DNA of 64,000 bases from Chelydra serpentina (taxonomy: Eukaryota > Chordata > Testudines > Chelydridae), in the NCBI GenBank assembly GCA_037349315.1, contig JBAIAC010000006.1, positions 18,945,501-19,009,500 of the forward strand. Direction: 5' to 3'. Shown here in pieces: positions 33,167 to 63,176 of this stretch; within the stretch, counting starts at the first letter, position 1; each line of letters opens with the position of its first letter. Made by a program: the position numbers and the translations under genes. Under the pieces are notes generated by a model. The model saw only the letters and a list, made by a program, of their open reading frames with translations, searched no databases and was not told the DNA's origin.

Positions 33167-36100
33167 TTACGGAAAAACAGCTTGTAGGATAGCCCTACCA
33201 AAAGCTGCGTCATTACGTGAATGGCGGTTGATGGCGTAGTGCGTCGTAAAGGTGTGCACCGAAGCCCAGGTTGCGGCCCTGCAGATTTCCTGAAGGGGAA
33301 CGTTGGCCAGGAAAGCCGCCGAGGAAGCTTGCGCTCTCGTAGAGTGGGCTGTGACTGCTGGCATCGGGACCCTCGCCAGGTCGTAGCAGGCACGGATGCA
33401 GGCTGTAATCCATGACGATATATGCTGCGAGGAGACCGGAGCGCCTTTCGAGCGTTCTGCGATGGCGACGAACAGCTGGGATGTCTTACGGAACGGCCTT
33501 GTGCGTTCAATGTAGAAGGCGAGTGCCCTTCTGACATCCAAGGAATGTAGCCGTTGCTCTTTGGAGTTGGCATGCGGCTTAGGGAAGAAGACAGGTAGAA
33601 AAATGTCTTGTGACATGTGGAAGGGCGAGACCACCTTTGGGAGGAAGGACGGATGGGGTCGAAGCTGGACCTTGTCCTTATGGAAGATGGTATACGGAGG
33701 GTCACATAGGAGAGCCTTCAGCTCGGATACCCTTCTGGCTGATGTGATAGCCACTAGAAAGGCGACCTTCCACGACAGATAGAGGAGGGAGCAGGAGGCC
33801 ATTGGCTCAAAAGGAGGGCCTGTAAGTCGAGAGAGGACGAGATTGAGGTCCCATGCTGGAACAGGTGGCTTTATTGACGGATGAACCTTTTCCAGGCCCT
33901 TGAGGAAGCGACGTACCACGGGGTGCGAGAATATTGAGTGGCCCTCCGAGCCTGGATGAAAAGCCGAGATGGCCGCAAGGTGGACCTTCAGGGATCCAAG
34001 TGCAAGGTGGTTATCCTTGAGATGTAACACGTAGTCCAGAATAGACGGCACGGAGGCAAGGTGTGGAGATATGTGCTGTTGAGCGCACCAGAGAGAGAAC
34101 CTTTTCCACTTTGCCTCGTACGTGAGCCTTGTGGTGGGCTTACGGCTCTCAAGGAGCACTCGTCTAACTGGAGCCGAGCAAGCCATCTCCGACCGGTTCA
34201 GCCATGAAGTCTCCACGCTGTCAGATGCAACGAGTGGAGGTCTGGGTGGAGAAGACGACCGCGATCTTGGGAGATGAGGTCGTGGCTGATCGGGGGAGGA
34301 ATGGGGGGCTGTATCGACAGGTCCATCAGGGTCGGGTACCAGCACTGTCGTGCCCAGGCAGGGGCCACCAGAATGACGTCTGCCTTGTCCCTGCGAATCT
34401 TGAGGATGACCTTGTGGAGTAGCGGGAAAGGCGGGAACGCGTAAAGGAGATGACGTGACCACGAGATCGTGAAAGCGTCCACAAGGGAGCCCAGGCCGTG
34501 TCCTCTGAAGGAGCAGAAACTCGGGCACTTCCTGTTGGTTCGAGAGGCAAACAGGTCGAGCTGGGGAAAGCCCCAGGTGCGGAAGATTGAATGGATCACG
34601 TCTGGGCGTGTGGACCAGGAAGCGTCTGCTCAACTGGTCTGCCAGGACATTCTGGACTCCAGGGAGGTAAGACGCCTGGAGAGAGACGGAGTGAGTCAAG
34701 CAGAGGTCCCACAGTAAAAGGGCTTCGCGGCATAGCGGTGATGATCGAGCCCCGCCCTGCTTGTTCAGGTAGTACATTGCAGTTGTATTGTCTGTGAGAA
34801 CCTCGACGCAGCGGCCTTGTAGGTGAGCCAGGAACGCTTGGCAAGCTAGACGAATAGCCCTGAGCTCCTTGATATTGATGTGGAGATCGAGCTCGTGCTG
34901 CAGCCACATGCCCTGCGTTGTTAGTTGCCCAAGATGAGCGCCCCAACCCAGAGCCGATGCATCTGTTACTAGAGTTAGCGTGGGAAGGGGAGGCTGAAAC
35001 GGGACCCCTTCGCGTAACGTCAGTGGGTTTAGCCACCACGACAGGGAGTTCAATGTGTGGGGCGGAACTGTGACAACCATGTCCAGCCTGTCTCTGTTGG
35101 GTCGATAGACAGAAGCCAGCCACGCTTGCAGTGGGCGAAGACGTAAGCGGGCATGTTGGACCACGTACGTGCAGGACGCCATGTGACCCAGCAGCTGAAG
35201 GCATTGCCTTGCGGTGGTGGTCGGGAACCGACGGAGCGAAGTAATCAAGTCCACGATGGCGAGGCGACGAGCCTCTGGGAGGAACGCCCGAGCTCTGGTT
35301 GCGTCGAGGACCGCTCCGATGAACTGGATGGACTGAGTCGGTTCCAGCACTGACTTGCTGGTGTTTAGGATGATACCAAGGTGAGAGAAGGTGTCCCTGA
35401 TCATCTGTACGTGCGTTTGCACCTGTTGACGGGACCGGCCTCGCACTAGCCAGTCGTCGAGGTACGGGTACACGTGAATGTGGTGGCGGCGAAGAAACGC
35501 GGCTACTACTGCCATGCATTTTGTAAAGACACGGGGGGCTGTGCACAGGCCGAAAGGGAGCGCTGTGAACTGGAAGTGTGTCTTGCAAACGACGAACCGG
35601 AGGAATCGTCTGTGAGCCGGTGTAATGGAGATATGGAAATATGCATCTTTCATATCAAGGGCGGCATACCAGTCCCCAGGGTCCAGGGAAGGGATGATCG
35701 TGGCCAGGGATACCATGCGGAACTTCAGGTTGACGATGTATTTGTTGAGGTTCCTCAGGTCCAGAATGGGTCGTAGACCCCCCTTGGCCTTGGGGACAAG
35801 GAAGTAGCAGGAGTAGAAACCCTTTCCCCTGAACTTGTGAGGCACCTCCTCCACCGCTCCGAGTTCGAGGAGCGCTTGTACCTCTTGATAGAGAAGTTGC
35901 TCGTGAGAAGGGTCCCTGAAGAGGGATGGGGAGGGGGGGTGAGGAGGAGGGGTAGAGTGGAAGTGGATAGAATATCCCTCCTCTACCGTCCGGAGGACCC
36001 ATCGGTCTGATGTAATACGGGACCAGGCATGGTAGAATCGGGACAGACGATCCAGGAAGGGTAGAGAGGCAGGACTGAGCAGGAAGGGTAGGCCGTCCTC

Positions 36101-36196
36101 GACAGTCCCTTCAAAATGGGCGCTTAGCACCCGGAGTTGGTTTGTGCTGTCCCTTGTTTTGCCCTTGGGGCGGGCGGTTAGGCCTGCGGCGACCAA
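33167..36196 (-). pseudogene. DIRS RT-RNase H and tyrosine recombinase, fused out of frame
   Basis: One 1009-codon frame. Residues about 120-285 are reverse transcriptase with YLDD at 245-248 and 'ALPFGL' at 212-217. Residues about 405-525 are RNase H with D411, E444, D469 and D520. Residues about 670-1000 are a tyrosine recombinase with R821/R822, H951-x-x-R954, W977 and Y987, so all catalytic positions are present. Residues about 531-660 do not resemble DIRS protein. The expected RT-RNase H C-terminal extension ('LDLFASRTNRKCP', 'APAWARQCWYP') lies instead in another frame, 34599-34198, which has its own stop at 34198. The likely original state was two overlapping frames; a small deletion near 34610 shifted the first into the frame of the second. 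The domain order and lack of an integrase distinguish it from LTR retrotransposons. Confidence 0.85.
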
Positions 36197-38772
36197 AACT
36201 GGTTCGGCGTCGGGAGAAGTCCTGACGCGGTCGAGGCGGGAAAGAGCGCTGTTGGGATGGCTGGGGCTTGAACGGCTTCCTGAGCGTCGCCACGGTATGC
36301 ATCCCCAAGGACTTGATGGTGTTTCTAGTGTCCTTGAGGTTATGCAGGCGTGAGTCCGTCAGGTCGGCGAACAGGCCCTTCCCGTCAAAGGGGAGGTCCT
36401 GGATGGTGTTCTGGACCTCCGCTGGCAAACCGGATGACTGGAGCCATGCGCTCCTCCTCATGGAGATGCCCGTTGCCAGTGTTCGGGCCGCCGCATCAGC
36501 CGAGTCCAGGGCACCCTGTAGGGAGGTACGGGCCACCAGTTTGCCCTCGTCAGCCATAGCTCTAAGTTCTGTTTGGGACTCTGGTGTAAGCTGGTCCTCA
36601 AACTTCCTTAGGGCTGACCAGGTGTTGTGGGCATACCTACTAAGGATCGCTAGTTGGTTGGCGATCCTTAGGGAAAGTCCGGCGGTGGAGTAGACCTTTC
36701 TCCCGAATAGGTCAAGGCGTTTGGAGTCCTTGGACTTGGGAGCTGGGCCTTGCTGTCCGTGCCTCTCCTTGGCATTGACAGCCTCCACCACGAGGGAACA
36801 AGGTGCGGGATGGGTGAAAAGGTATTCAAACCCCTTGTCTGGAACAAAGTATTTCCTCTCCACCCCTCTAGGTGTTGGGGGGATGGAGGAAGGGGTTTGC
36901 CAGAGCGCCGTAGCATTGCCGCGGATGGTTTTGTTCATCGGCAAAGCGACTCTGGAGGGACCCTCTGGCTTCAGAAGCTCATCCACCATCGGGTCGTCCT
37001 TCTCCTCCGCCACCTCCTCTATGGGCAGGTTCATGCTAAGAGCCACAACTCCGGAGTAGCTCCTGCAGGACCTTAAAATCCATAGGCGGAGGCGCAGATG
37101 ATGATGTCCCCGCTACGGCTTCATCAGGAGAGGAGGAAGAGGTTGTGAGAGGGAGGGGAGGCTCAGGCAAGTCGTCCCGCTCTAGGGTGGGCTGCTGGAG
37201 AGGTGAGGGAGACGCCGCCCTTTGTCCCGGGGTTGTATCAGCGGGTGCAGTCTCCTCAGCAGGTGGGCGGGAGATGGTCGCCACAGGAGGGTGGACTCGT
37301 ACCAGCAGACGGGGGGGTAGGGGTGCACCTTGGGCCTCATGGTACGCCCAGGGTGTCCAGAACGGCCACTGGGGCTGCCAGGCGGCCGGCAGAGCTTGCA
37401 CTGGGGCCAGTGGGGTCGCCTCCGGTGTTTTGGAGGGCCCAGCCGAGCTGGTGGAAGATGGTTCCCGGGATGGCCAAGGAGGAGCGGTGCGCGACGTCGG
37501 GTGGTCCCTGGAGGGTCTGAAGCGTGTGGCATGTGGATCACGCGACCTCGATCTGGACAGGGAGCGGTACCGCACCCGCTCATCGCGGTACCGTGGGGAC
37601 TCGCGGTGCCTTGGGGATCGGCGCCGCGGAGACGAGCCCCGGCGCGGAGAGCCCCGGCGCCATGGGGAGTGCCGGTATCGTGGGGACAAGTCCCGGCGCG
37701 AGGTGTCTCGGTGCCGTGCGGAGTCGTGGCCCGGCGTGTCCCGGCGTGGGGACCGGTCTTGGCGCGGGGTGTCCCGGTGTCGTGGGGACGCGTCCCGGCG
37801 TGGGGTGTCCTGGTGCCGCGGGGGTGCATCTCGAGGCGGTGAGTCTGGGTACCGCGGAGAGGGCCCTTGGGGCTGGCGGCGAGGAGATTCCCGTCGCCGA
37901 GGAGAGTCCCAGTGCGTGGATGGGCTCCGGCGTGTAGTCTCCGCCGAGGGTTGAGCCCGTGGTGGGGAGCGGTGCCGGGAAGGCGTCGCGCTCGTCCTGG
38001 ACACCGAGCGGGACCATGATCTGGCAGACCAGGAGGACCTCGAGCGTGAACGGCTCCGAGGTTCCAAGCTGCGAGATCTGTGCCGCGAGTCCGACCGGCG
38101 CTGTGAGTCAGACCGATACACCAGCCGGTGCCGGGACTCCGAACGGCGCCGGGACCTCGAGCGGCGTGAAGGAGGCTGTAGTTGAGCCGACGGTCCGAGG
38201 AACGTCGGCTTGCCTCTGGAGATGACCGGGGGCCGTGCCTGGGTTGGTGCCGGCACGGGAGACGCGGTCATCTCGATCAAGCCCCTGGCAGCCTCAAACG
38301 TGTCCGGCGTCGTGGGTGCAATCAAGACGACTGGGCACGGGGGTGTCTGTGGGCGCGGACTAGCGCTCGTCTGCTCCGGGGCAGCGGGGCAGGGTGGTGC
38401 CGCGGCGACGTCCGGTGCCTTGCGTCCGGAAGAGAGGGAGCGGTGTCGGGGACGGCCCCGGGTTCCCGACGGTGCCCGGCCCCGAGGCGGGCGAGAGTCC
38501 TTGTGCGGTGCCGCAGCCGGCGCCGATGGTGGTGCGCTGCGCACCGAGATGGTAGAGCCCGCACCTTGAGAGGGGCAGAGTGCCGCCTCCATCAGCAACT
38601 GTCTTAAGCGGATCTCTCTGTCCTTTCTGGTGCGGGGCTTGAAGGACTTACACAGCTTGCACTTGTCCGCGGTGTGAGACTCACCCAGACAACGAAGACA
38701 GGAATCGTGGGGGTCTCCGGTGGGCATGGGCCTGTTACAGGATCCACACAGCTTGAATCCTTGTGAAGGCAT
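36111..38772 (-). pseudogene. DIRS gag, split by a frameshift
   Basis: The first part (ATG at 38772, 578 codons) opens with three CxxC pairs: C9/C12, C25/C28 and C38/C41, with H22 and H33 nearby, a zinc-binding module. A long arginine/serine/proline-rich tract follows, residues about 200-440. It stops at 37036. The second part (from about 37046, 311 codons) is in another frame and contains 'KVYSTAGLSLRIANQLAILSRY', the conserved alpha-helical gag region that is also the source of the LAP2-alpha C-terminus in mammals, then a basic RRR/PRPR tail. Acidic DPMVDELL wording spans the junction, so both pieces once formed one protein. A single-base insertion near 37050 is the simplest cause. Gag would package the element RNA; this copy cannot make the full protein. 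Confidence 0.82.
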
Positions 38773-46028: not shown

Positions 46029-46619
46029 CTATAGCACCTTGCAGCAGTTGAGGCAGCCGCTCGGGGTGCCGTAGCGTTTCTGCAGGGCGGCGCGGGTGGC
46101 CGTCTCGAAGACCTCGCGGACCCCTTCCTTGGTCTTGGCCGAGCACTCCAGGTAGTCGTAGGCCTGGATGCGGACGGCCATGGCCCGCCCGTCCTCGGTG
46201 CGCACGGGCTCCTGCTTCATGCGGGCCAGCTCGTTGCGGACGTGCTCGTCGTTGCGCAGGTCCTTCTTGTTGGCCACCAGGATGATGGGCACGTTGGGGC
46301 AGAAGTGCTTGACCTCGGGCACCCACTTCTCCGGGATGTTCTCCAGCGAGTCCGGGCTGTCCACCGAGAAGCACATGAGGATCACGTCGGTGTCCGGGTA
46401 GGAGAGGGGCCGCAGGCGGTCGTAGTCCTCCTGGCCGGCCGTGTCCCACAGGGCCAGCTCCACCTGCTTGCTGTCCACCTCGATGTCCGCCACGTAGTTC
46501 TCGAAGACGGTGGGCACGTAGACCTCGGGGAACTCGTCCTTGCTGAAGACGATCAGCAGGCAGGTCTTGCCGCACGCCCCGTCCCCCACCACCACCAGCT
46601 TCTTGCGGATCGCGGCCAT
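46029..46619 (-). CDS. RHOB: Rho-related GTP-binding protein RhoB
   Basis: A complete 196-residue small GTPase in one exon, as in all vertebrates where RHOB is intronless. P-loop GDGACGKT (12-19), switch I with T37 in PTVFENY, switch II DTAGQ (59-63), NKKD (117-120) and SAK (160-162) are all canonical. RHOB-specific marks are [16 protein letters not shown] and the C-terminus CLNCCKVL, with C189 and C192 as palmitoylation sites and C193 as the prenylated CAAX cysteine; these separate it from RHOA and RHOC. RhoB cycles between GDP and GTP, acts on endosomes and the plasma membrane, and controls actin, receptor trafficking and stress responses. The start at 46619 gives the family MAAIRKK N-terminus; an upstream in-frame extension to 46811 is not conserved. 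Codons are very GC-rich, in a CpG island. Confidence 0.97.
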
Positions 46620-49034: not shown

Positions 49035-49390
49035 CGGCAAGAGCCGGTGCGCCATACTGGGGCGGACCGGCTTCCCCAGGCGGCAATTTAAAGGACCTGG
49101 GACTCCCAGCAGCAGCTGGAGCCATAGGACCTTTACATTGTCACCAGAGCCCCACTGCCAGAGCCTTGGGGCTGCTGCTACCCCAGGGCTCCAGGGACGA
49201 TTTAAAGGGCCCGGACCGGTAGAGGCAGCGGGAGCCCCGGACCCTTTAAATAGTCGCCGGAGCACCGCCACCACTACCCCAGGGCTCCGGTAGGCTTCAG
49301 TGGCTATTTAAAGGGCCCGGGGCTCCCACTGCCTCTACCACCCCAGGCCCTTTAAATCGTCCCCGGAGCCCTGCTGCCCTGAGATCCTCA
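49035..49390. repeat. GC-rich repeat with recurrent TTTAAA boxes
   Basis: 'atttaaaggacctggg', 'atttaaagggcccgga', 'ccctttaaatagtc', 'atttaaagggcccggg', 'ccctttaaatcgtcc' recur in both orientations, making a chain of inverted repeats. Related to 22578-22798; probably the inside of a hAT-type element. Confidence 0.5.
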
Positions 49391-49590: not shown

Positions 49591-50750
49591 CCTAAAAAGA
49601 ACAAGATGTGCACTGGACAGAACATTTCAAAGAATTGCTGAAAAGGGAACCACCTAAAGAGGAAGCAAACATCCAGGAGGCAGCAGAAGATCTCAACACA
49701 GACACTGCAACTAAGGAAGAGATCATACAAGCCATCAAATCCTTAACAAATGGGAAAGCTTCTGGCAAGGATAACTTGAATGCAGAATTGTTCAAGGTAA
49801 ATCCTAAATTAGCAGCATCTATCCTAGCCACTCTATTTACATCAGTCTGGGAAAGGGAAAAAGTGCCAGACGACTGGACCAATGGCGTTATAGTGAAGAT
49901 ACCAAAGAAAGGAACTCTCAGTGATTGTAATAACTGGCGTGGCATCACACTTTTATTTGTGCCAAGCAAAGTACTGTGTAAGATCATAGTCCAGCGTATA
50001 TCAGAGGCAGTTGATAACGTTCTCAGAAAAGAGCAAGCTGGTTTTCGGAAAGGGTGTGGATACACAGACCAGATCTTCATTCTACGAAACATAATAGAAC
50101 AGTGCTTAGAATGGCAATGACAACGCTCCATAAATTTCATAGACTTTGAGAAGGCTTTTGATAGCATTCACAGGATCAGCCTATGGAGCATTCTGCAGGC
50201 ATATGGAATTCCTTTACGTATAATCAACGTCATCAAAAGCTTCTATTTCAACTTTATATGCAGTGTTGATCACAGTGAGCTCAGTTTTGAAGTCAAAAAC
50301 AGGAGTACGTCAGGGTGTGTCATGTCTGCAATCCTCTTCAACATTGCCATTGACTAGGTAATGCAGCGTACAAGAGAAGACATGACAAGAGGCATTAAAT
50401 GGACTCTTCTCATCCCTTGAAGATGACTTCGCAGATGATGTTGCTATCCTATCACATATCCAACACCATATACAAGATAAACAACTCGACTCAACACATT
50501 CAGCCAGCAAGTTGGACTGAAAATCAACTGCAATAAGACAGCTATCATGACCTTTAATATTGCCTCACCATCACCAGTACGGAGAGAGGGTTATGTTCTC
50601 ACCAATGTAGAAACATTTACATACTTGGGCAGCACCATCAGCCAGGATGGTGGAAGAAGCCAGGACATCCGGAACAAAATCAGTAAAGCCAGGAACACCT
50701 TCAGGAGCTTAAATACAGCCTGGAAATTTCTCTCTTTCCCATTTCCCCCA
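49590..50750 (+). mobile_element. non-LTR retrotransposon RT remnant
   Basis: Open at 49608-50120 with 'KASGKDNLNAELFK', 'NNWRGITLLFVPSKVLCKII' and 'QAGFRKGCGYTDQI', early RT blocks of an RTE/jockey-like LINE. After a stop at 50118-50120 the same frame continues with 'FIDFEKAFDSI', a damaged 'GVRQG' region, a lost YADD region around 50430 and 'TNVETFTYLGSTIS' (about 50600-50645). No endonuclease part and no tail. The clade is not assigned. Confidence 0.75.
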
Positions 50751-58475: not shown

Positions 58476-58657
58476 GATAAATAACAAAGATCAAGAAATC
58501 ATAAATATGGGCAGATGGGAATAATACAAAGGGACAGATTCTAATCTAGTGTGATTTGCCTCCTCCTTCTCTCCCTCTCTCCTCAAAGAGTAGTTACAAA
58601 GCATTGGAAGCTTGAAGCTGGAAGGGTTCATTTTGCACCACGTCCAAATTTCAGAAG

Positions 58658-59254
58658 ATGGCTGCTGTTTGGAAAAAGCTAACTGTCGTGGGAGATGTTG
58701 CCTGTGGCAAGACATGCCTCCTGCTTGCCTTCTGCAAGGAACAGTTTCCCAAATGCTATGAGCCAACAGTGTTTGAAACGTACGTCAACGATACCAAGAT
58801 TGATGGGAAGTTGATGAAGCTGATGCTCTTTGATGTAGCAGGGCAGCGCCAAGGTAATTATCAGCACTTCCGTTCGTTGTTCTATCAAGGTACAAATGTC
58901 ATCTTAATGTGCTTCTCAGTGGACAGGCCAAATGCACTGCAGAACATCCTTGACATTTGGATTCCAGAGGTCAAACTGTTCTGTCCCACAGCTCCCATTG
59001 TTCTGGTGGCTACCAAGAAAGAACTGAGGAACGATGAGGGTGTGCTGGAAAGACTTGCTAAAATGGAACAAGAGCCAATAAAGACTGCAGAAGGAAAGGC
59101 CTTGGCTACTAGCATTGGGGCATATGCCTATCTGGAGTGCTCTGCAAAGACGAAAGATGGCATTGAGAGAGTCTTGCAGATTATTGGTCAAGCTGCAATC
59201 CAAGATGGAACAAAGAAGAGAAGAAAGCATCGTGGGTTCTGCAGATTGTTGTAA
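58658..59254 (+). CDS. divergent Rho GTPase, RHOB-like paralogue
   Basis: An intact intronless 198-codon frame starting MAAVWKKL. G boxes: P-loop GDVACGKT (12-19) with Val at 14 where RHO proteins have Gly; switch I EPTVFETY with T37 kept; DVAGQ (59-63) with Q63 kept, then two extra residues compared with RHOB; TKKE (119-122) in place of NKKD; CSAK (161-164) kept. The tail is polybasic (KKRRKHR, 186-192) and ends in a CRLL CAAX box, so geranylgeranylation is expected; RHOB's palmitoyl cysteines are absent. By hand, about 107 of 196 positions match the RHOB in this window, and LVA before the G4 box and AYxYLECSAK are RHOB-like rather than RHOA/RHOC-like. There is no poly(A) tail or target duplication to mark a processed copy. 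Absence of stops at this divergence argues for selection. It could be GTP-locked. Expression is not shown. Confidence 0.75.
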   Translation: MAAVWKKLTVVGDVACGKTCLLLAFCKEQFPKCYEPTVFETYVNDTKIDGKLMKLMLFDVAGQRQGNYQHFRSLFYQGTNVILMCFSVDRPNALQNILDIWIPEVKLFCPTAPIVLVATKKELRNDEGVLERLAKMEQEPIKTAEGKALATSIGAYAYLECSAKTKDGIERVLQIIGQAAIQDGTKKRRKHRGFCRLL

Positions 59255-59393
59255 GAAGGGCAATGTTGTTTTTTTTAAATGTATAAGTACATATATAACT
59301 TATTGAGAAGTTAGATGGTATGTGGGCGTTTTATGAGTATTGCATGAATGCTTTCATGGGGCCAGATTTTCCTCCTCTGTGAAAAAAGCTGGT
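59255..59393. other. flank of the Rho-like gene
   Basis: AT-rich, with no AATAAA seen before the LINE begins. Any 3'UTR would be short or run into the LINE. Confidence 0.4.
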
Positions 59394-59575: not shown

Positions 59576-62164
59576 TCAAAGGGTCAAACGAAGTGAACCA
59601 GATGGAGACACCGAGCAGAGAACCCCGGACAGCGCCCACTGCTCCTCAAAGGCGTCAAGGGAGCCAGTGGACGCTGCCCAGAGGAACTCTTCCCGGATGC
59701 GTGAAAGAACAGAGGATCGGAAATAGGCCCCACAGTCACAGGAGCCTCCATCGGCCAACCTCCTCACCCTGGTTTTGTAGATGGCCAGTTTCGCTAGGGC
59801 CAGGAGGAGGTTGACTAGGAGGTCCCGCGACTTCATGGGGCTGCAGATTGGAAGTGCATAAATAAAAAGGTGAGGGGAAAAGTGCAACCAAAACCTCAAC
59901 AAAATGTCTAAGAGGAGCCGGAACAGGGGCTGCAGCCTGGCACACTCCAGATAAATGTGCGCCAGGGTCTCCCTCACGCCGCAAAAGGGGCAGGTGTCGG
60001 GGATAGGGGTGAACCGCGCCAAGTACACGCCCGTGCTCACGGCTCCGTGAAGGAGCCGCCAACTGACATCCCCGGCGGGCCTTGGGACTAAGGAGGAGTA
60101 AAGGCTGGCCCACCGGGGCTTCTCACCCTCTAGAGGTGGCAGGAGGTCCCGCCATTTCGTATCGGGGCGGGACGTGAGGGTGAGGAGATGAAGGGTGTGG
60201 AGCACGAGCGTGTATAGATGTTTCCTTGGAGCGGTCTGGAAGCGGACCGGCTGCAGTTTGTGCAGCTGGCTCGCAGTGAAGGGACAGGGGACCCGATTGG
60301 GTCCACGGGGTAGGGGCCCAATAAAAAGGTCCGGAGGGCTTGGGGTGAAGGGAGGGCAGGGCGTACCCTCTCGCAGGACCCAGTCGAGGTAAACCCGAGC
60401 AGCGGGCGGCAAAGCGGCCTTCACCTCCTGAAGTACGCGCCAGGGAGTACGAGGTCTGGAGAGCCCCATGCGCTGAGCGAGCGTCAGGGGATCCAGCCAG
60501 GCTCCCCGGTCGTAGTCCAGGAGGTCTCCAACCCTAGTGACTTCCACCAGGACCAACCTCTGGCGCACCGAGGGGGACTCCGCCACCTGCACACAGAGCT
60601 GGGGGTTATGTAGCAGGGGCTCCGTGAGGAGATCTGCCCCCTCGGTGGCCACCACGCACCTGGTCGCTGAGAATAGCTTCCAGGTCTGGAGGAGGTCCTG
60701 GTAGAAGACCGGCAGCCCAGAGAGGTTTCGCGGAAGATGGAGATAAAAAAGCTGCCGGTCGTATCGGAGCCCTCGGAAGCGGCGTAGGAAGGCATGCGCC
60801 AATACACTCCACACCGGACTACCTGCACCATAAAGGAGCCTCTGCAGGGCCTAGAAATGGAAGACATGGACCTGAGTGTGTGGACACTTCAGGCCCTGCC
60901 CACCCTCCTCCAGAGGAAGATGGAGAACCCCTTCAGAGACCCAGTGCAGTCCTGACCAAAAGAACTCCAGAATCGACGTCCGGAGGTTGGCCAGGAAACC
61001 CGGGGCCGGGACCAGGGTGTTGAGCCGGTACCAGAGCATGGACAGGACTAATTGATTGATTACCAGTGCCCTCCCTCGAAAGGAGAGGCACCGGAGTAGT
61101 CCTGTCTATCTCCGGATCCGCTCTGTCACCCTGCCCTCTAAACCTTGCCAATTCTCCAGTGGGGATGGATGCGTGGCAGAAAGGTAAACGCCGAGATAGA
61201 GCAGCGGACCCGCGCTCCACCTGATGGCCTGAAGCGCGGGTGGGAGGGAGCTCGCCTGCCACCCGTCCCCTACCACCAGGCCAGAGCTCTTGACCCAGTT
61301 GACCCGGGCAGAGGCGGCCGCCGAGTAGATCGCCTGGCAAGCCTCCACCCGCACCAAGTCGCCCGGGTTCTGGACCACGAGGAGCACATCGTCGGCGTAT
61401 GCCGACAGGACCAGCCACAGCTCCAGCTCTCGGAGCACCAACCCTGTCAACCTTCTGCGGAGGAGACAGAGGAAGGGCTCGATCGCCAGAGCATACAGCT
61501 GGCCCGAGAGGGAACACCCCTGCCGTACTCCCCGCCCGAAGCTGACCAGCTCGGTCAGGGTCCAGTTGAGCCTGACCAGACACTCTGCGGAGGCGTACAG
61601 CACCTGGAGAAAACCCACAAACTGGGGCCCGAAGCCAAACGCTCACAGAGTGCTCAGGAGGTACCCATGATCCACCCTGTCGAACGCCTTCTCCTGATCC
61701 AGAGACAGGAGGGCGAACGACAGACCATCCCTGCACCCAAGCTCCAAGAGATCCCGGACCAGATACAGGTTGTCGAGGATGGTGCGGCCCGGGATGGTTT
61801 AGGTCTGGTCTGGGTGGACCACGTCCGTCAGCACAGACCCCAGCCGCAGCGAGATGGCCTTCGCTACGACTTTATAGTCTGTGCTGAGGAGCGAGACGGG
61901 ACGCCAATTCCGTAAATCGCAGAGGCCCCCCGGAAGACCAAGAAGGGGTGCCGCCAGATCCGTGAGGGGGGTGCCATCTTCTGCGAGGAGGCAGGTGACG
62001 TGTTTCTTAGCCCCCCTCTTTTTCTCCAGGGCGTAGAAGAAGCGGGAGCCGTGATCCCGCATCCATCTCCTTCGGGAGATGGATGCGGGATCGAACGAAG
62101 GCGCCCCGGGCCCGATGATCTTAGAGTTCCCGGAGCTCCTCCCGCTTCTCCCGGCACGCCCCAC
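59576..62164 (-). pseudogene. Tx1-like LINE ORF2: reverse transcriptase and C-terminal zinc region
   Basis: A single frame, broken by four stops. Visible blocks: 'KHVTCLLAEDG', 'LRNWRPVSLLSTDYKVVAKAIS', 'DQEKAFDRVDHGYL', 'RGVRQGCSLSGQLYALAIEPF', 'AYADDVLLV' (the RT active site, about 61400), 'LNTLVPAPGFLANL' and, in the 412-codon tail (60814-59576), CPFCGVRETLAHIYLEC, a CCHC-like zf-RVT motif. Between 'GLPGG' and 'LRNWRP' (about 61930) the N-terminal palm sequence that precedes this block in related LINEs is absent, so an internal deletion of a few hundred bases is likely. Confidence 0.85.
62053..62092. repeat. 18-bp perfect hairpin with TTCG loop in LINE ORF2
   Basis: Left arm 62053-62070 (gatcccgcatccatctcc) and right arm 62075-62092 are exact reverse complements around ttcg (62071-62074). 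It sits where the LINE reading frame changes. Confidence 0.8.
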
Positions 62165-62319
62165 AGAGGGATGGATCCTCAGGGCTGGCGGCCAGACACC
62201 TCTCCAGCTCTAAGACCTCCCGTTCCAACTGCTCTACCGCCGCATCCCTCCGTCGGCTGGCGCCCCGGGTGTAGTCACGGCAGAAGAGCCGGGCCCGCAC
62301 CTTCCCTAGATCCCACCAT

Positions 62320-63176
62320 CACCGCGCCGAGGGAAAGGCGCGCCGCTGCCCTCGCCAGGCCAGCCAGAACTCCCGGAAGGACGCCACGAAACCCACATCC
62401 TCCAGCAAACTGTTATTAAAATGCCAATAGGCCGGCCCCAGCCTCTCTGCGCAGAGAGAGGCCGTCATGGTAGTGAGATGATGATGAGAGAACGGGGCCG
62501 GCCAGACGCTGGAGGAGTGGGCCCGCGAAAGGTGAAAACGTGATAAATAGATGCGGTCCAACCGGGAGTGGCGCGACTGATGGGCCTCAACCCGGACAAA
62601 GGTGAAGGTCGAGATGTCATCCGGGTGGTGGTCGCGCCAGACGTCCACCAGGGAGTGATGTTCGACAATCTCCCTGAGGACGTCCGCGGCGGCCGGGCAC
62701 TGCTCGATCCCCGAGTGGTCCCGTTCCTCAAGGGTATTATTAAAGTCCCCGCCCAGGACCAGGCACTCGCGAGGATCCAAGGTGCCGAGGAAGGTGGACG
62801 CCTGCTGATAGAAACTAAGCTGTTCCGGGCCCGATGTCGGGGCATAGATGTTGACGAGATCGACCACGAGCCCCTCCATACAGACCCGTAGGTGCAGCAG
62901 GCGGCCCGGCACAACCTCGGCAACCCCCAGCACCTCAGGCGGTAGGTCAGGGGAGAACAGGGTCGCCACTCCAGCCTGGCGAACAGAGAGATGGCTGAAG
63001 TAGACTCTGTCCCCCCATTCCAGCCGCCAGCTGTCTTCGGCGGCTGGATCCGTATGGGTCTCCTGCAAGAATACTACAGAGTACCCCCCGTCCCGAAGGA
63101 AGGAGAGCACCTGGCTCCTGCGGAGACCCATCCTACAGCCCCGGGTGTTCAATGTTACAAAGTGGATGGGTCCCAT
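62320..63176 (-). pseudogene. Tx1-like LINE ORF2: AP-type endonuclease domain
   Basis: From ATG 63176: 'VTLNTRGCR' (N-terminal Asn box), 'VVFLQETHT' (catalytic Glu), 'VNIYAPTSG', 'VLGGDFNNTLEERD' (GDFN), 'SRLDRIYLS' (RLDRIY) and 'PFSHHHLTT' (SHH in place of SDH). These are the motifs of the APE-like endonuclease that nicks target DNA in L1/Tx1 LINEs. The frame meets TGA at 62317-62319 and continues in the same frame to about 62090, so the stop is a lesion and not the natural end. Confidence 0.85.

Follow-up and report, generated by a model that had tools for sequence, protein, structure and literature searches.

The window, that is the whole 64,000-nucleotide stretch of Chelydra serpentina DNA that was analysed, carries on its forward strand a coding frame for a Rho-type small GTPase that runs from MAAVWKKLTVVGDVACGKT to CRLL over 198 codons with no internal stop. 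An earlier note on this DNA had described an intact Rho frame of this length with a valine at position 14, and this was borne out: codon 14 is GTT and the translated P-loop reads GDVACGKT. T37, Q63, the SAK motif and the terminal CRLL that it had claimed were all found in the frame as well. The product matched the Pfam family Ras with E=1.4e-37, human RhoA chains from the PDB at E ~1e-68, and solved RhoA, RhoB and RhoC structures at ~1e-68 to 1e-64; in NCBIfam only the general small GTP-binding domain was assigned. A chance open frame is ruled out by the Pfam and RhoA chain matches.

Canonical RHOB, whose coding frame is also uninterrupted, lies 12 kb away; apart from it, nothing in the 64-kb window matched the paralogue significantly. 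The two proteins are identical at 107 of 196 aligned residues (54.6%), in good agreement with the divergence of about 45% given earlier. The presence of RHOB in the window had been missed at that time, as had N117T, D120E, T60V, E64R and two extra residues in switch II, changes that weigh as much as Val14. The features of the locus are the following.

46029..46619, reverse strand: RHOB, the canonical paralogue, divergent from the new paralogue and 12 kb apart
58567..58657, forward strand: probably conserved leader directly upstream of the ATG, ending TTTCAGAAG (tblastn)
58658..59254, forward strand: intact coding frame of the putatively RHOB-derived Rho paralogue (translation, Pfam Ras, clade support 100/100)
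58697..58699, forward strand: codon 14, GTT, Val where RHOA, RHOB and RHOC have Gly (Val in 10/10 turtle and 3/3 crocodilian rows)
58832..58843, forward strand: G3 motif DVAG, DTAG in RHOB (T60V in 46/50 rows)
58853..58858, forward strand: two extra switch II residues, GN in C. serpentina, soon after residue 63 (alignment)
58854..58991, forward strand: 138-nt in-frame GT...AG stretch that would equal the piece absent from Trachemys 'isoform X2' (sequence)
59012..59023, forward strand: G4 motif TKKE, NKKD in RHOB, that is N117T plus D120E (T117 in 77/77 and E120 in 73/77 rows)
59240..59251, forward strand: CRLL at the C-terminus, a prenylation signal of the CAAX type preceded by a basic stretch (Cys in 45/50 rows)
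59251..59256, forward strand: splice-donor-like GTAAGA overlapping the stop codon (sequence and the C-termini of relatives)

Compared with the RHOB of the window, the paralogue differs at 31% of first, 25% of second and 66% of third codon positions, and dN reaches 0.36; because dS is saturated, no dN/dS ratio against this RHOB is given. In a tree limited to paralogue, RHOB, RHOA and invertebrate Rho rows, the paralogue and RHOB formed one side of a branch facing RHOA and invertebrate Rho (support 99/87), which is compatible with a position of the paralogue either inside or beside vertebrate RHOB. Where RHOB differs from RHOA and the clade has largely retained one or the other residue, sites 10, 86, 100 and 116 were found to be RHOB-like and 29 and 143 RHOA-like. 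The tree grouping, the RHOB-like residues and the adjacency of both genes, as seen in the C. serpentina window, together favour descent of the paralogue from a RHOB duplication. The duplicate would have arisen beside RHOB and diverged before the turtle-archosaur split, over 200 million years ago, to be inherited by turtles, crocodilians and birds, a place and a date that we infer.

Several traits of the flanking DNA bear on gene structure. The N-terminal extension of the alligator model found its best match in the window at 58567-58641 (tblastn, E=0.002) and that of the crocodile matched the same place at E=0.13 only; a stop and a frame change relative to the alligator model make this upstream match look like leader rather than protein. 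At the other end, six turtle and two galliform rows run past the usual terminus into TCGQKQ or TCRLKT, as if they were spliced at a site matching the GTAAGA of the window, and a TCGQKQ-like 3' exon (at least 4 of the 6 residues) was not found between 59254 and 63980. Taken together, the leader, the donor-like site and the 138-nt GT...AG stretch hint at a transcribed and spliced gene. Rfam gave 0 matches on the whole window.

Mobile-element sequence was also observed in the window. Shortly downstream of the paralogue, LINE-type remains on the reverse strand (59576-63176) hold an endonuclease domain (E 7.4e-16) and a zf-RVT-like match below the cut-off (E 2.3e-4). What looks like a fairly intact retroelement occupies 33167-38772 on the reverse strand, with a 1009-aa reverse-transcriptase and RNase H frame (RVT_1 E 2.1e-21) and, on the 5' side of it, two more long frames without Pfam match. 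Between RHOB and the paralogue lie a reverse-transcriptase fragment on the forward strand (49608-50120, RVT_1 E 1.1e-6, its 29.0 bits being just short of the cut-off, 29.6) and an 80-nt inverted repeat, 86% complementary with arms 30 nt apart (49184-49373).

Orthologues of the paralogue were found in turtles, crocodilians and birds. Among the best 120 of 2421 matches of the protein search, full-length turtle rows from Mauremys, Terrapene, Eretmochelys, Pelodiscus, Gopherus, Chelonoidis and Emydura were 86-92% identical to the C. serpentina protein, the shorter models of Caretta and Trachemys 73% and 70%, and Alligator and Crocodylus 74-75%; ordinary Rho of usual length ranked after the rows of this clade, at 54-58%. 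Bird rows, at 53-66% identity, came from dozens of genera among the matches listed by the protein and profile searches, from kiwi, rhea and emu to fowl, petrels, gulls, cuckoos and condor. In the profile search (best 120 of 2584 matches), full-length clade rows scored at least 320 bits and ordinary Rho of usual length at most 269, longer Rho chains reaching 502, presumably through more than one match each.

None of those best 120 of 2584 profile matches was a lizard, tuatara, mammal or amphibian row. Lizard RHOB and RHOA rows (Phrynocephalus, Salvator) appeared when RHOB served as query, so that lizards are covered by the protein collection, and the matches listed suggest that the paralogue is absent from lepidosaurs. 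Passerines, parrots and falcons, for which many genomes are public, are not named among the listed clade rows, where the members of clusters go unnamed; this is only a hint of possible losses in some bird lineages.

A tree of 43 rows separated 30 clade rows from 13 canonical ones at 100/100. Within turtles, Emydura branched first, then Pelodiscus, then the remaining turtles, and palaeognaths were separate from other birds, which fits vertical descent; the C. serpentina paralogue was placed just outside sea turtles and Testudinoidea. Crocodilian rows grouped with turtles and not with birds (94/83, not starred), and a tree uniting crocodilians with birds lost 3.2 log units against it, which did not suffice for rejection (p-AU 0.33). 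The proteins are already in the databases under names borrowed from RHOA, Rho and RHOB, namely 'ras-like GTP-binding protein rhoA/RHO' or 'RhoB-like', and no description of the paralogue was found in the literature, with coverage of open-licence papers only and incomplete. On the sequences at hand, the best reading would be an atypical, RHOB-derived Rho without a name, known to date only in turtles, crocodilians and birds.

Residues were counted over 77 rows (10 turtle, 3 crocodilian and 64 bird or bird-like), that is all clade rows recognised among the listed matches, including fragments, rows without a named source and several rows per species. The residue at position 14 is Val in all turtle and crocodilian rows, and in the 64 bird rows it is Asp in 53, Glu in 4, Asn in 2, His in 1 and Gly in 1, the remaining 3 being fragments that lack the position altogether. 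Of the 74 rows with a residue at this site, 73 thus have something other than Gly. At position 63, all 13 turtle and crocodilian rows have Gln and no bird row does (0/64); birds carry Lys in 59 rows, Asn in 4 and Glu in 1. Val14 in the common ancestor followed by a change to Asp in birds would be one simple history, since GTT to GAT is a single step; a direct change from Gly to Asp in birds would likewise take one step.

Other changes reach the motifs around the nucleotide. Thr stands at position 117 in 77/77 rows and Glu at position 120 in 73/77, with Asp in the other 4; Thr at 117 is normal in Rac and Glu at 120 is unusual. In switch II, residues 63 and 66 are separated by four residues in 75/77 clade rows as against two in 12/12 canonical rows, the two exceptions being turtle rows, evidently the deleted Caretta and Trachemys models; alignment columns 66-67 are filled in 50/50 clade rows and in 0/12 canonical Rho rows. 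Scored against residues invariant in 12 canonical Rho, the near-fixed differences (at least 90% of 50 rows) include V35E, T60V, P71S, S73F, S88R, E93Q, F171L and A174I, among others. Birds further show D40 in 55/57 and L38 in 47/57 rows, and N41, which crocodilians keep, has disappeared from turtles and from almost every bird row. In leukaemia, RhoA mutations include G14V, N117I, K118E/Q and D120N, according to passages of PMC6321241.

The structural model of the paralogue, predicted from a 55-row alignment to which canonical Rho had been added, has a mean pLDDT of 72.9 (an earlier model from a shallow 24-row alignment, at 60.2, was set aside). Values are under 50 at residues 29-39 and 184-198 and average 53 over the block 61-70; given the low values at 29-39 and 61-70, nothing was read from the modelled switches I and II. 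The first PDB match by Foldseek was RhoA G14V with GDP (6v6v, TMq 0.84), other RhoA entries being close behind. Profile and fold, that is Pfam, matches to RhoA, RhoB and RhoC of the PDB with E <1e-60 and Foldseek, all place the protein among Rho G domains.

Of the residues of a classical switch (Gly14, Gln63 and NKxD), the paralogue keeps Q63 and carries V14, T117 and E120 in place of Gly, Asn and Asp. Substitution of the P-loop Gly and/or the switch II Gln, by which GTPase-deficient atypical Rho proteins are recognised, was found in 77/77 rows, each of which has at least one of the hydrolysis positions 14 and 63 changed. The altered GTPase cycling that had been proposed earlier for this gene is a sound expectation from sequence, because a hydrolysis position is changed in all these rows. 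The reading we prefer, with a probability of roughly 0.68, is that of a protein-coding RHOB duplicate of turtles, crocodilians and birds encoding a largely GTP-bound atypical Rho. The analysis shows the intact frame, the orthologue clade that groups with RHOB, the residue changes and the predicted fold, and we infer the nucleotide state of the protein, its resistance to regulators and its partners.

That the protein has instead become a nucleotide-free pseudo-GTPase, a Rho fold kept as a scaffold in which the loss of Gly14 or Gln63 and D120E reflect the end of all nucleotide handling, is an unlikely alternative in view of the residues that were kept. It draws on the presence of D120E in 73/77 rows, on the combination seen in birds (mostly Asp at 14, mostly Arg or Cys at 15 and mostly Lys at 63) and on D59N or G62E in a few rows; D120E could indeed abolish, rather than tune, guanine binding. 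Against it, every turtle (10/10) and crocodilian (3/3) row and 57/64 bird rows have the complete P-loop set of G12, G17, K18 and T/S19, T37 is present in 10/10, 3/3 and 61/64 (74/77 overall) and K118 in 75/77, and G5 is the slowest region of the clade. The P-loop Lys and the Mg ligands would be of little use to a scaffold that binds no nucleotide. T37 and Y34 are kept nearly throughout the clade, and the switch I core (T37, V38, F39, E40, Y42) is normal in turtles, C. serpentina included.

Rates within the clade indicate constraint. They are lower at the 139 columns that do not vary among 12 canonical Rho than at the 55 columns that do, at 0.88 against 1.18 in 50 rows (a fraction of 0.0004 of 20,000 samples was as low) and at 0.86 against 1.21 in 71 of the 77 rows (0 of 20,000). 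The 50-row test omits 27 of the 77 rows, mostly partial or near-duplicate ones together with the two most diverged, Todus and P0128, both of which the 71-row test takes in. Over these 71 rows, the 21 residues of the G motifs, changed sites included, have a mean rate of 0.65 against 0.96 (0.0017). This test was relied on rather than a narrower one on 15 hand-picked core residues that excluded the changed sites 14, 15, 60, 63, 117 and 120 (0.465 against 0.967, 0 of 100,000). By region, mean rates are 0.37 for G5, 0.56 for G4, 0.74 for the P-loop and 0.93 for switch II; those of G3 (1.03) and switch I (1.17) are at or above the clade average of 0.97, and that of the insert helix is 1.47.

Summed over the 50-row tree there are 4.18 changes per site, or about 827 amino-acid changes, over which neutral evolution, at the 0.058 nonsense per missense that holds for these codons, would have brought about 48 nonsense changes. 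The listed clade frames are open, which is support and not proof, the collection being made of predicted proteins only, in which broken orthologues would be invisible. Conservative replacements, expected at 0.52 of missense changes, made up 0.48-0.70 in nine pairs, eight of them above expectation and Chelonoidis below, an excess that is suggestive only. Two derived residues are fixed, N117T and A174I, each in 50/50 rows.

Constraint fails in places. The DxxG motif is broken in 2/10 turtle rows, by D59N and G62E in Chelonoidis and by D59N with an internal deletion in Caretta; one of the 3 crocodilian models lacks G5, and a core motif is missing from 12/64 bird rows, of which three are truncated fragments. 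The Todus and P0128 rows are diverged, with changes in the K18-T19 region, and one bird row, that of Mesitornis, carries the label LOW QUALITY PROTEIN. At the C-terminus, 45/50 rows have Cys in the CAAX column. The other 5/50 have Phe and are all turtles (Mauremys, Terrapene, Eretmochelys, Gopherus and Chelonoidis), which makes 5/8 of the full-length turtle rows; the Caretta and Trachemys models also have Phe. The Cys is kept in C. serpentina, Pelodiscus and Emydura, with extra residues following in the latter, and 37/40 bird rows end C-x-x-L, two others running past and one being cut short. The loss in turtles means that the lipid anchor is dispensable in some of them or that the gene is relaxing there.

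These failures could be those of a relic in slow decay, functional in the common ancestor and now relaxed and disappearing from one lineage after another, where a slow mutation rate in turtles would have preserved the copy of C. serpentina. To this reading belong the missing CAAX Cys of five of the 8 full-length turtle rows, DxxG broken in Chelonoidis and Caretta, the diverged Todus and P0128 rows, the label on Mesitornis and the absence of passerine, parrot and falcon names among the listed clade rows. However, canonical-invariant columns and the whole G-motif set change more slowly with the diverged rows included, N117T and A174I are fixed in 50/50 rows and 37/40 bird rows keep the C-x-x-L end; slow decay appears slightly less probable than a pseudo-GTPase. 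Finally, RHOB might have left a processed pseudogene or retrocopy that stands alone and is open by chance in C. serpentina. The single coding exon and the retroelement sequence close downstream would fit such an origin, which is highly improbable and already refuted by the relatives in turtles, crocodilians and birds that form one old clade. A leader upstream of the ATG that resembles that of the alligator also speaks against it, and the lack of introns says nothing on this point because the RHOB frame of the window is itself uninterrupted.

The view of the earlier note that this is a host gene and not a dead copy is well supported, by a RHOB-derived clade whose turtle, crocodilian and bird members include predicted proteins of full length, and by lower rates at the sites that ordinary Rho conserves. 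The CAAX box to which it had appealed is a weak argument, since Phe stands for Cys in most full-length turtle rows and the box is not a general mark of the paralogue.

As a GTP-bound atypical Rho, the duplicate would have lost residues of GTP hydrolysis, Gly14 and in birds also Gln63, gained two residues in switch II and altered its guanine-recognition motif, and would have retained the Rho G domain fold and guanine nucleotide binding. Passages of PMC9778661 give GTP hydrolysis rates per second of 3.8e-6 for RhoA G14V and 5.1e-6 for Q63L, as against 100e-6 for the wild type. The same Gly is missing from Rnd proteins and RHOH, to which parts of PMC8305018 and PMC13236570 ascribe a GTPase-deficient, GTP-bound state, and RHOH is presented as insensitive to GAPs with an output set by its level in sections of the reviews PMC8305018, PMC2565660, PMC13236570 and PMC6321241. 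By analogy, the paralogue should be GTP-locked: it would not be switched off through hydrolysis or RhoGAPs, D120E might speed nucleotide exchange, and the largely GTP-bound protein would have its output governed by synthesis and degradation. A normal switch I core beside a remodelled switch II would allow binding of only part of the Rho effector or regulator set, with possible competition with RHOB and RHOA, and the two extra residues would alter contacts with GEFs, GAPs, GDIs and some effectors. A role through part of the effectors, or as a competitor, would be the likeliest outcome.

Changes at Gly14 and Gln63 of RhoA are textbook activating mutations, and a RHOB duplicate that carried changes of this type through turtle, crocodilian and bird evolution would be a natural experiment on how cells cope with a switch that lacks its usual off route. 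It is conceivable, if on balance doubtful, that an extra Rho lineage became permanently GTP-bound or nucleotide-independent before the turtle-archosaur split and serves as a dedicated competitor of RHOB and RHOA signalling. If so, birds would have taken this a step further, with the catalytic Gln replaced as well, and several turtles would have freed the protein from the membrane through loss of its lipid anchor. Bacterial toxins modify the RHOA residues T37, Y34, N41 and Q63, and with N41 lost in turtles and nearly all birds and Q63 in birds, a partly toxin-tolerant Rho would be possible. In practice, the mislabelling of bird and reptile entries as rhoA/RHO or RhoB-like may affect orthologue tables and expression studies of poultry, alligators and turtles.

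Among known systems, the paralogue has in common with RHOB, RHOA and RHOC the fold, the length, the P-loop Lys and Thr, T37, SAK and the CAAX-type end, and with RHOB in particular V10, V86 and A116. It differs from RHOB, to which it is 54.6% identical, by G14V, T60V, E64R, N117T, D120E and the two additional switch II residues, and the extra tail cysteines of RHOB (CLNCCKVL), beyond that of the CAAX box, are gone from the C. serpentina protein. RHOB itself is counted as atypical and constitutively active through palmitoylation in part of a 2026 review (PMC13236570). Rnd1-3 and RHOH likewise lack the P-loop Gly, and they lack Gly and Gln at the same pair of positions according to passages of PMC8305018 and PMC2565660, a state that the bird members of the paralogue share. 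In contrast to them, the paralogue groups with RHOB, in a tree limited to RHOB, RHOA and invertebrate Rho besides the paralogue itself, and has its best PDB matches in RhoA, RhoB and RhoC; it carries Val or mostly Asp where RHOH and RhoE have Ser, plus D120E and the switch II insertion. It looks like a Rho that lost residues of hydrolysis separately from Rnd and RHOH. With the RhoA G14V of the laboratory and of tumours it shares the same change of Gly14 to Val, a valine that is here fixed in a gene of turtles and crocodilians, amid many other changed sites.
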